Assembly (NCBI GenBank): GCA_029974855.1
Contig: JARKQO010000129.1
Location: forward strand, 1-6,717
Origin: Eubacteriales bacterium
GTDB taxonomy: Bacteria; Bacillota_A; Clostridia; Christensenellales; Aristaeellaceae
DNA length: 6,717 nt
Reading direction: 5' to 3'
Position 1 is the first letter of the stretch. Each line of letters starts with the position of its first letter. The translations under genes were made by a program, and so were the position numbers. This document shows positions 1,242 to 4,034 of the stretch, in pieces. Below the pieces are notes generated by a model that saw only the letters and a list, made by a program, of their open reading frames with translations, made no database searches and was not told where the DNA came from.

Positions 1242-1250
1242 CACTCCTTC
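1242..1250 (-). promoter_or_regulatory. Ribosome binding site deciding the GTG start of the DUF3048 gene
   Basis: On the minus strand this reads GAAGGAGTG and places AGGAG 8 bases before GTG at 1235-1233. No ATG in the same frame fits both a ribosome binding site and a signal peptide, so the GTG is preferred. The outer base of operator-like dyad 1 touches its upstream edge. Confidence 0.7.
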
Positions 1251-1261
1251 GACAACTGTCG
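1250..1261. promoter_or_regulatory. Operator-like dyad 1 (BlaI/MecI/CopY-type)
   Basis: The sequence CGACAACTGTCG is an inverted repeat of CGACA arms around two bases. It lies between the predicted start point and the ribosome binding site of the DUF3048 gene. The GACA-NN-TGTC core resembles half-sites described for BlaI/MecI-type repressors. The assignment to that family is inference. Confidence 0.55.
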
Positions 1262-1274
1262 TATGTATGATATC

Positions 1275-1303
1275 ATTCTACATCTGTCGCAGATGCTTGT
1301 CAA
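1275..1303 (-). promoter_or_regulatory. Sigma-A-type promoter of the DUF3048 gene
   Basis: On the minus strand a perfect -35 box TTGACA (1303-1298) is followed by a 17-base spacer and the -10 box TAGAAT (1280-1275). Transcription would begin near 1268, giving a leader of about 32 bases before the GTG start. Dyad 2 (1278-1289) overlaps the -10 box and spacer, and dyad 1 lies just downstream of the expected start. A repressor bound there would block the promoter. Box match and spacing are close to ideal. Confidence 0.75.
1278..1289. promoter_or_regulatory. Operator-like dyad 2 (hybrid half-sites)
   Basis: CTACATCTGTCG joins a TACA half-site to a TGTC half-site with the same two-base gap. It covers part of the -10 box and spacer of the leftward promoter. 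Its centre is 28 bp from dyad 1 and 35 bp from dyad 3. Repressor identity is inferred, not shown. Confidence 0.55.
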
Positions 1304-1325
1304 GAGAGTTTTCTACATTTGTAGA
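1297..1325 (+). promoter_or_regulatory. Probable promoter of the SH3 protein gene, -35 shared with the divergent promoter
   Basis: TTGTCA (1297-1302), a 17-base spacer and TGTAGA (1320-1325) form a moderate sigma-A match. The leader would be about 80 bases. The -35 box overlaps the minus-strand TTGACA almost completely (CTTGTCAAG). An alternative is an extended -10, TGG-TACGAT at 1343-1351, which lacks a clear -35 box. Either choice puts dyad 3 inside or next to the promoter. Confidence 0.45.
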
Positions 1326-1326
1326 A
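1311..1326. promoter_or_regulatory. Operator-like dyad 3, cop-box-like TACA-NN-TGTA
   Basis: TTCTACATTTGTAGAA is a 16-base dyad, perfect except for its two central bases. Its core TACA-TT-TGTA matches the pattern known for CopY 'cop boxes' and BlaI/MecI operators. It covers the predicted -10 region of the rightward promoter, so it is the best candidate for controlling the SH3 gene. An AT-rich chance dyad is possible, but the three sites share one pattern. Confidence 0.6.
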
Positions 1327-2543: not shown

Positions 2544-2575
2544 GGAAGGGGTTAGGGGAGTAGCCCTTTCCTTTT
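2544..2575 (+). terminator. Possible intrinsic terminator of the SH3 protein gene
   Basis: GGAAGGGG (2544-2551) can pair with CCCTTTCC (2564-2571) over 8 bp with one G-T wobble and a 12-base loop. TTTT follows. It begins two bases after the stop codon. The T tract is short and runs into the convergent gene's stop codon, so termination may be partial. Confidence 0.5.
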
Positions 2576-4034
2576 ACATTCTTTCTAAGAGCTGCCGCTT
2601 CTTCTTTTCATACTCCTCTTGTGAAAGAATCCCTTGCACAAACAGGCCGTGCAGCTCTTTGATATGGCTTGCAAGGGTTTGTGCAGAGGAAGCGGCAGGG
2701 GCGACGCTTGGGGAAGATTGGGGGTGGATTTGAGTTCGCTCCGTTTCCTCCCGATAGGCCGAACCATCCGCCGGGCGCAACGCCCCTGTGCAGATCATCA
2801 CCAGGTCAATGATCCACCAAATGCCCAATCCCCCGCCAGTTATCAGTTTCACGATCCCTAGGCCTATGTAGCCAAGGTAGAAGCGGTCGATACCCAGGGC
2901 GCCCAACAGAACGGAAAGAATAATGGCGGTGGTTTTGCTTTTCCCTTGTGAACTTTCTTCCAGGGCTGCCTTTTGCGGCAAAGTGAGAATGGCGGCCGCG
3001 AACACAAGCACCGTATTGTATAGCATGGCCCAAAGAAATGCCGCATTGTATAACATGGCCAACCAGGTCCCCCCGCTGGTGAATGGGTATAGGAGGGGAT
3101 AAATCGCCCAATTGATAAGCGCTCCATAATAAGCGCCCATCCGCTGTCCACTTTTTGATATGGAGTCCTCCAATGGGAGGCGTTTCCCATAGGCAGGGAA
3201 TAGCCTGCATAACAATAATATAGTAGCAATACAGGCGGAGATGAAGCATAAACAATCGAAATAGCCGTCCAGATACCCGGGACCGAAATACTGAACAGAG
3301 GAAACCAAAGCAAGTATTCCGCAAAGCAGGGATATAAGCATATCTACCGTCAACCAAGAAGTGATAACCCAATACCTTTGCTTTTTAACGGCAGAAAACA
3401 ATCCAATTGCCAATGGCACGGCTCGCAATATCCACCAAAAAAATAAGGAGAGGAGGGTTATACTCAGCGAACCCATCATGCCGTAGGAAAAATCCCATAA
3501 ATTCGTCAAAGCCTGAAAATCGTCTAGCTTTCCTACAGCGGAAGCAAACCGTATTAGAAATACTAAAGTGACATTGGATTGTAAAAATGGCAGAATAGGA
3601 AGAAGGCATAGAAGGATCAGGATCAGCCAGATGCGTTTGATCGCAAATCTTTGTAGCCTCATAGCCAAAGGGAATAAGGGCCGGGCCTTCTTTTCCGGCG
3701 TTGCGGGATTTGTGTCCGCCGCGTGCCGCAACGGCTCATCGTCCTCTATCGGGACGGGCGGGCGGATGTGGGCCGCGTAGGATAACGATGGAAGGCCATG
3801 TGCCGGTGCCGCCGGATTTGGATTTGCCGTCTGCCGCAATGGCCGGGAGGCATATTCCCGGGGTACCGGACGGGCGTGCGCCCCATGGGATAATGGCGGA
3901 AGTTTAACTGCCGGTGCTGCCGGATTTGGGTCTGCCATCTGCCGCCGCGGCTGAACGGGGTCTTCCGGCACTGCCGGATTCATGTCTATCACATGTCGAT
4001 CGATTCGTCTGGTCCTTGGCTGTTGCATACTCAT
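2574..4034 (-). CDS. Multispanning membrane protein with TM2 and C-terminal SHOCT domains and N-terminal repeats
   Basis: This is a 486-residue protein. The first ATG is preferred over the one two codons later because GAGGG sits 7 bases upstream. Residues 1-125 are Pro/Asn/Ala-rich, probably cytosolic and disordered, and carry repeats of 36 residues around (D/N)xNPAxP. Hydrophobic segments lie at about 134-151, 155-167, 187-215, 222-248, 258-280, 302-318 and 324-352. A TM2 domain follows (about 368-418) with GALGIDRFYLGYIGLGI, a conserved Trp pair and IIDL. Such a motif usually forms two helices joined by a short loop. The last 36 residues match SHOCT: IKELHGLFVQGILSQEEYEKKK (458-479, key residues L461, G468, I469, E473, K478), a short oligomerisation or recruitment motif. 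Function is not known; a scaffold or regulatory role in the membrane is inference. The membrane part is AT-rich compared with neighbours. It converges on the SH3 gene and has its own promoter. Confidence 0.85.
   Translation of the reverse strand: MSMQQPRTRRIDRHVIDMNPAVPEDPVQPRRQMADPNPAAPAVKLPPLSHGAHARPVPREYASRPLRQTANPNPAAPAHGLPSLSYAAHIRPPVPIEDDEPLRHAADTNPATPEKKARPLFPLAMRLQRFAIKRIWLILILLCLLPILPFLQSNVTLVFLIRFASAVGKLDDFQALTNLWDFSYGMMGSLSITLLSLFFWWILRAVPLAIGLFSAVKKQRYWVITSWLTVDMLISLLCGILALVSSVQYFGPGYLDGYFDCLCFISACIATILLLCRLFPAYGKRLPLEDSISKSGQRMGAYYGALINWAIYPLLYPFTSGGTWLAMLYNAAFLWAMLYNTVLVFAAAILTLPQKAALEESSQGKSKTTAIILSVLLGALGIDRFYLGYIGLGIVKLITGGGLGIWWIIDLVMICTGALRPADGSAYREETERTQIHPQSSPSVAPAASSAQTLASHIKELHGLFVQGILSQEEYEKKKRQLLERM
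3011..3060. repeat. Short direct repeat within a membrane segment of the TM2 protein
   Basis: CCGTATTGTATAGCATGGCC (3011-3030) and CCGCATTGTATAACATGGCC (3041-3060) match at 18 of 20 positions with a 30-base period. They encode AMLYN twice, at residues 326-330 and 336-340. This looks like a small in-frame duplication lengthening a hydrophobic segment. Confidence 0.6.
3675..3998 (-). repeat. Degenerate 108-bp (36-residue) tandem repeats in the TM2 protein N-terminus
   Basis: Two full units lie at 3837-3944 and 3729-3836. Each encodes R-Q-x-A-(D/N)-P-N-P-A-A-P and ends in PL. They are flanked by partial units at 3945-3998 (RHVIDMNPAVP) and 3675-3728 (RHAADTNPATP). The DNA copies are also alike: TGCCGGTG(C/T)CGCCGGATTTG-type strings recur 108 bases apart on the plus strand. 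The partial first copy is 18 codons long, exactly half a unit. Confidence 0.75.

Follow-up and report, generated by a model that had tools for sequence, protein, structure and literature searches.

The window, which is the whole stretch of 6,717 nucleotides analysed here, carries three short inverted repeats between two divergent genes for exported proteins, one with a DUF3048 domain and the other with a bacterial SH3 domain. The question raised by this locus is which repressor reads these dyads, and whether both genes answer to it. BlaI/M56 systems have mostly been read through beta-lactam resistance; here such a system apparently drives a DUF3048 protein and an SH3 wall-type protein, which offers a handle on two families without a known function. 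DUF3048 (YerB) is named among lipoproteins with no assigned function (PMC13068155).

Known BlaI systems provide two points of comparison. Three BlaI operators, OP1 to OP3, are described between the divergent blaP and blaI-blaR1 units of Bacillus licheniformis, and the OP1 probe contains TACA-TA-TGTA (PMC3305447). The window likewise has three predicted operators between two divergent units, but here the genes encode the DUF3048 and SH3 proteins, and neither a beta-lactamase nor a repressor or receptor is encoded next to them in the window. In Clostridium thermocellum, BlaI sites in ordered sets are reported at blaI itself and, for BlaI_0696, at three operons of which one encodes a protein without known function; regular site spacing served as a regulon criterion (PMC8457756). 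The window resembles this in having an ordered series of predicted BlaI sites; the motifs reported there are GTCTAT/GACTAT repeats (PMC8457756) and those of the window are CTACA-NN-TGTAG.

Three dyads between two divergent genes

All three dyads described in the first-pass annotation are exact at the positions given in Table 1, and are evenly built as it claimed. O1 and O3 are perfect palindromes, all three dyads are intact, and O2 combines, as had been said, one half-site of each outer type. On the minus strand O2 reads CGACA-GA-TGTAGAAT and O1 reads CTACA-AA-TGTAG. The spacing is uneven, with centre-to-centre distances of 28 and 35 bp.

Table 1. Features of the window that bear on the dyads.
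Feature	Position	Strand	Details
DUF3048 exported protein gene	3-1235	minus	probable start GTG 1235; truncated by window end
DUF3048 ribosome-binding site	1244-1249	minus	AAGGAG; directly adjoining O3
Operator O3 (dyad 1), predicted	1250-1261		CGACAACTGTCG = CGACA-AC-TGTCG; weight-matrix score 19.6
DUF3048 promoter	1275-1303	minus	-35 TTGACA 1303-1298, 17-nt spacer, -10 TAGAAT 1280-1275
Operator O2 (dyad 2), predicted, hybrid	1278-1289		CTACATCTGTCG = CTACA-TC-TGTCG; weight-matrix score 18.6
Probable SH3-gene promoter	1297-1327	plus	TTGTCA 1297-1302, 19-nt spacer, TAGAAA 1322-1327; weak, by eye
Operator O1 (dyad 3), predicted	1313-1324		CTACATTTGTAG = CTACA-TT-TGTAG; weight-matrix score 27.4, top of window
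Exported bacterial SH3-domain protein gene	1411-2541	plus	376 aa
SH3 protein C-terminal domain	1981-2541	plus	last 186 residues; model pLDDT 95.1, pTM 0.90

The dyads are genuine and far beyond chance. ACANNTGT occurs three times in the 6,717 bases, each time as one of the dyads, and when one mismatch is allowed CKACANNTGTMG also matches only these three. Shuffled windows gave a mean of 0.24 matches to CKACANNTGTMG and none of 200 reached three, and when the intergenic region (1245-1410) was shuffled 20,000 times three ACANNTGT sites were never seen (mean 0.04); the pattern was defined post hoc, so the comparative tests weigh more than these shuffles.

The minus strand reads, in order, CTACAAATGTAG (O1), 9 nt, TTGACA, 8 nt, CGACAGATGTAGAAT (O2 fused to the -10 TAGAAT), 13 nt, CGACAGTTGTCG (O3), AAGGAG, 8 nt and GTG. 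O1 thus lies 9 nt upstream of the DUF3048 -35, O2 overlaps the -10, and O3 lies in the leader and touches the ribosome-binding site. This promoter is strong, with 11 of 12 bases of the consensus in the promoter scan; the mechanical open reading frame begins at 1244, as against the probable GTG at 1235. The -35 of the probable SH3 promoter overlaps the opposite -35, and its -10 TAGAAA is fused to, and covered by, O1. This promoter is absent from the output of the scanner, which accepts spacers of 16-18 nt and has a plus-strand candidate of its own (TCGACA 1249-1254, 16 nt, TATCAT 1271-1276). The earlier placement of the dyads on two divergent promoters stands for the DUF3048 side, while the SH3 promoter is weaker and drawn by eye. 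Dyads with an ACA-NN-TGT core do overlap promoter elements, as is expected of a BlaI/MecI-controlled promoter.

No repressor gene is present in the window, as had been stated. Further along, the minus strand encodes a membrane protein with TM2 and SHOCT domains (2574-4034), preceded on the same strand by genes for 5-formyltetrahydrofolate cyclo-ligase and an M20 peptidase.

The same arrangement at blaI promoters of related Clostridia

The sites of the window and their arrangement recur at the autoregulated blaI promoters of relatives. The closest case is genome G043: its blaI promoter matches the window in the offsets of all three sites from TTGACA (-23, +12 and +40), and 53 of 76 bases are identical in an ungapped comparison; two of its three sites carry one mismatch to CKACANNTGTMG. 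The blaI-M56 promoter of G009, which encodes a BlaI 67% identical to that of G043, aligns with the window promoter with a score of 43, where none of 2000 shuffles exceeded 26. The blaI-M56 promoters of G043, G009, G129, G685, G120 and G113 are all variants of O1-9-TTGACA-8-O2/-10-O3 with the same half-sites, G043 having all the spacings; the O2 of G009 is degenerate, however, and several relatives' blaI promoters have no clear O1 or O3. Hybrid sites resembling O2 are also found at blaI, as CGACAAATGTAG in G043 and as TGCGACAGCTGTAGAA in G120, compared with TGCGACAGATGTAGAA in the window. The modules of these relatives control blaI and its M56 receptor, whereas that of the window stands before other exported proteins.

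When the G009 BlaI was used as a query, 41 places were found in 32 of 200 family genomes, and 30 of the 41 were fetched. The 200 bases upstream of blaI contained 17 ACANNTGT sites in 14 of these 30 loci, where 2.07 were expected (at most 8 in any of 300 shuffles), and stretches of 200 bases within the blaI genes yielded one site in all; the other 16 of the 30 loci have no ACANNTGT upstream of blaI. In G009, G113 and G120 the sole exact CKACANNTGTMG of the genome is the site before blaI, and in G043 it is one of three, the remaining two being inside reading frames. These four genomes have 1-3 CKACANNTGTMG sites each, compared with 12-40 for the reversed control, as if spurious operators were avoided or the site were disfavoured by composition.

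Eight blaI promoters (G685, G129, G120, G113, G066, G131, G166 and G077) have a common -35, 8 nt and O2/-10, which follows from their having been picked via a composite pattern, and O1 and O3 vary among them. In local alignments to the window, eight of ten blaI promoters beat all 500 randomised sequences; that of G166 aligned no better than randomised sequence and that of G066 only tied with the best randomised one. A weight matrix built from 21 sites of ten blaI promoters gave the dyads the scores in Table 1, the next score in the window being 4.9 and the best in 200 randomised windows 14.3, in a test which is partly circular as the gathering pattern was taken from the window and nine of the ten promoters were found or kept with it. 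The location of sites before blaI is a less circular test because the genes beside the sites played no part in the pattern.

Not every blaI fits this picture. G007 has a single clear blaI, and its surroundings lack such a dyad (L138). In a further blaI group, that of G014 and G015, a pair of ACA-NN-TGT dyads separated by 21 bp lies close to the blaI start (L136 5325-5362 and L137 5502-5539). In G466 an ATAGAC...GTCTAT inverted repeat precedes blaI (L120 3139-3159) and is reminiscent of the C. thermocellum BlaI_0696 motif; it does not resemble CTACA-NN-TGTAG, and these BlaI proteins may therefore recognise operators of more than one class.

Pattern scans of the family and class

The composite TTGACA-N8-CKACANNTGTAGAAT, with up to two mismatches, was found at 59 places in 53 of 308 family genomes, and its reversed control at four. 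Three of the 59 were repeated sequences and two rows were left out, leaving 54 distinct sequences. A BlaI frame follows 12 of these at a distance of 1-42 nt, and the remaining 42 have none in the vicinity. Nine places carry one mismatch or none, and six of the nine precede BlaI, so that many of the other places probably arose by chance. None of the 54 stands before a DUF3048 gene, and none before the SH3 protein's domain.

In the class, 12 of 331 genomes have two exact CKACANNTGTMG sites separated by 11-40 nt, at 13 places in all (reversed control, four places). Ten of these are directly before a BlaI gene followed by an M56 gene; two (L236, which falls within a reading frame, and L239) have neither in the flanking 1.5 kb to either side; and the thirteenth, L242 of G263, precedes an exported lipoprotein. 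A looser form of this pattern found two places in the 308 family genomes as against 13 in the control, so double exact dyads are no general mark within the window's own family; one of the two is upstream of a BlaI match in G175, and the other, L250, is before a frame that looks BlaI-like by eye. Another pattern count over 200 genomes gave two places and a control of four, the two being the G009 blaI promoter and L140, which has no BlaI frame. Site counts were below the reversed control in all four genomes counted singly (G009, G043, G113 and G120), and in G263 both stood at 12 rows, with six of the site rows from the lipoprotein module and one before blaI.

DUF3048 and SH3 homologues in relatives

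Relatives of the DUF3048 gene are found in uncultured Clostridia, Candidatus Limiplasma among them. None of 22 related DUF3048 genes has CKACANNTGTMG upstream, and two of the 22 have a different ACANNTGT. The domain of the SH3 protein is near none of these 22 loci, so the same gene pair is not available there. This outcome goes partly against the first-pass annotation, which had made conservation of the dyads with the gene pair one of its tests. The target pair under such dyads is seen only in the window, and the operator module before DUF3048 may be a recent capture.

A BlaI match is present in 11 of the 19 genomes reached via DUF3048 loci (ten above the curated cut-off) and absent in eight. 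All four searched genomes with a full-length SH3 homologue (G007, G009, G014 and G015) have BlaI genes. The starts of these four homologues and of ten further domain genes contain a single dyad (L131), with other half-sites.

Which repressor reads the dyads

The same half-sites lie at the same positions round the promoter before the blaI-M56 operons of relatives, and this match strongly supports the BlaI/MecI assignment made in the first-pass annotation. The three dyads are thus very probably operators of a BlaI/MecI-family repressor, which we infer to be encoded elsewhere in the genome of the window's organism, and which would hold both genes down together. Control of the exported DUF3048 protein is predicted with equally high confidence from the sequence; control of the SH3 protein is likely and less well shown, so that the joint regulon that had been proposed is supported for DUF3048 and is probable for SH3. 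With a BlaI dimer bound at O2, the -10 of the DUF3048 promoter would be masked; a dimer at O3 would block the beginning of the DUF3048 transcript, O1 adding a flanking site. O1 would also cover the probable divergent SH3 promoter, so that both exported proteins would be repressed together until an M56 (BlaR1-type) membrane receptor sensed an envelope signal and BlaI was inactivated, turning both genes on. The inducer is likelier to be a wall-damage signal than copper.

Copper had been the other option, under which the dyads would be cop boxes of a CopY-type repressor and both genes would respond to the metal. The KACANNTGTM core is indeed common to CopY and BlaI, and the authors who give the CopY consensus as RNYKACANNTGTMRNY caution that the ten-base core is by itself no basis for naming a repressor (PMC7253601). 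The outer bases and context differ from those of CopY/CopR cop boxes, however: all three dyads violate positions 1 and 16 of that consensus on both strands, the matching sites of relatives precede BlaI-M56 operons, and the CXC motif is absent from all seven BlaI proteins inspected, which are from other genomes. The CopY option is thus disfavoured, and we give it next to no credence. The position of the sites at blaI promoters may, as far as sequence comparison goes, also answer the caution about naming from the core. Short palindromes by themselves name no protein, and some other helix-turn-helix repressor could happen to bind ACA-NN-TGT; with an exact positional match to a blaI promoter, and double dyads at blaI across the class, this is very unlikely.

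The window architecture equals that of a blaI autoregulatory promoter, the DUF3048 genes of relatives are without the module, and a copied module is known from G684. The dyads could accordingly be a relic, a blaI promoter copied or captured before DUF3048 whose matching repressor has since been lost, leaving the genes constitutive. Decay would be expected to spoil the sites, but all three are intact and two are still perfect palindromes, and a relic is improbable. A weightier alternative, if still an unlikely one, is that control reaches the DUF3048 gene alone, the SH3 gene being an uninvolved neighbour transcribed from a separate promoter that lies closer to it: the module is oriented towards DUF3048, and the plus-strand promoter has a poor 19-nt spacer and is unlisted by the scanner. 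Against this, O1 overlaps the plus-strand TAGAAA box, and the SH3 protein's domain is used at the sensor position of M56 proteins, which ties the protein to such systems. With BlaI as the preferred repressor, the three-site switch shared with the blaI genes of relatives suggests that a BlaI/M56-type sensor system can run an unrelated cell-surface programme, and the module O1-9-TTGACA-8-O2-13-O3 could serve to predict which genes BlaI controls in uncultured Clostridia.

The SH3 protein, M56 sensors and BlaI-linked proteins

The last 186 residues of the SH3 protein have no Pfam model match, and the high-confidence structural model of this domain has no clear match to a solved fold in structure comparison, the XAC2610/CarG-like fold included. 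When the copy of the domain in protein P0170 was the query, 22 of 35 matches (P0170 included) carried an M56 domain, in a search that took only proteins of about 359-1141 residues and so favoured M56 fusions; with the SH3 protein itself as the query, two of 88 did. In P0170 and P0175 the domain sits after the M56 part, where BlaR1 has its sensor. G466 has an M56-type gene with the domain at its end (L120 3594-5840), divergent to a blaI-M56 operon; the protein has BNR/sortilin-like matches, and its Pfam M56 match is shortened and incomplete.

The G263 lipoprotein (L251 5810-7828) is preceded by O1-9-TTGACA-8-O2 plus two more sites, and it adjoins an 821-residue M56 protein and blaI, which has its own CTACGCGTGTAG upstream; the module can therefore also serve a target other than blaI. 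Like the window, this is an exported target other than blaI with O1-9-TTGACA-8-O2; unlike the window, it is beside blaI-M56, has four sites and shares a different domain. Within the lipoprotein, the outer domain of the neighbouring M56 protein occurs twice (BLASTP E 9e-36 and 6e-34). Among 27 blaI-M56 loci, three were excluded as their M56 tails were too short, and three of the 24 testable loci have a non-M56 neighbour that repeats part of the M56 tail: L251 (G263), L277 (G685) and L278 (G129). The other 21 had none. The L277 and L278 proteins are near-identical and share about 105 residues with the M56 tail (E 3e-10 and 3e-11).

It is possible, and we put it forward tentatively, that many M56/BlaI systems of uncultured Clostridia are closed ligand circuits and not beta-lactam devices. 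A main output of such a regulon would be an exported protein with the outer ligand-binding domain of an M56 receptor, which would mop up or present the receptor's ligand; the SH3 protein of the window would be a soluble copy of the sensor and the DUF3048 protein its partner, both under BlaI via capture of a whole three-operator blaI promoter. This can be likened to beta-lactamases and the class-D-like BlaR1 sensor, which share a ligand; the BlaR1 sensor is described as related to class D beta-lactamases (PMC9834060), so a receptor and a resistance protein sharing a ligand-binding fold have a precedent in kind. How many matches carry M56 varies with the protein lengths that the search admitted, which makes such circuits slightly less probable. 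Neither BlaI control of a DUF3048 protein nor a BlaI target sharing a domain of its receptor appears among the literature matches listed, as judged by titles and abstract openings. The link between regulated exported proteins and the outer domains of M56 proteins is the part worth following. That the SH3 protein shares a domain with M56 receptors offers a testable lead on the signals read by non-beta-lactam receptors of this kind.

In G684 the blaI promoter module is present twice (L223 729 and 3453), and at the second the first ten blaI codons are joined to a 682-residue, apparently exported frame. This looks as if a promoter had been captured through duplication, and shows how capture could happen. 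In L277 (10410-11399) and L278 (10633-11622) the gene directly after blaI-M56 encodes a 329-residue exported protein, which repeats the M56 end and is weakly PepSY-like.
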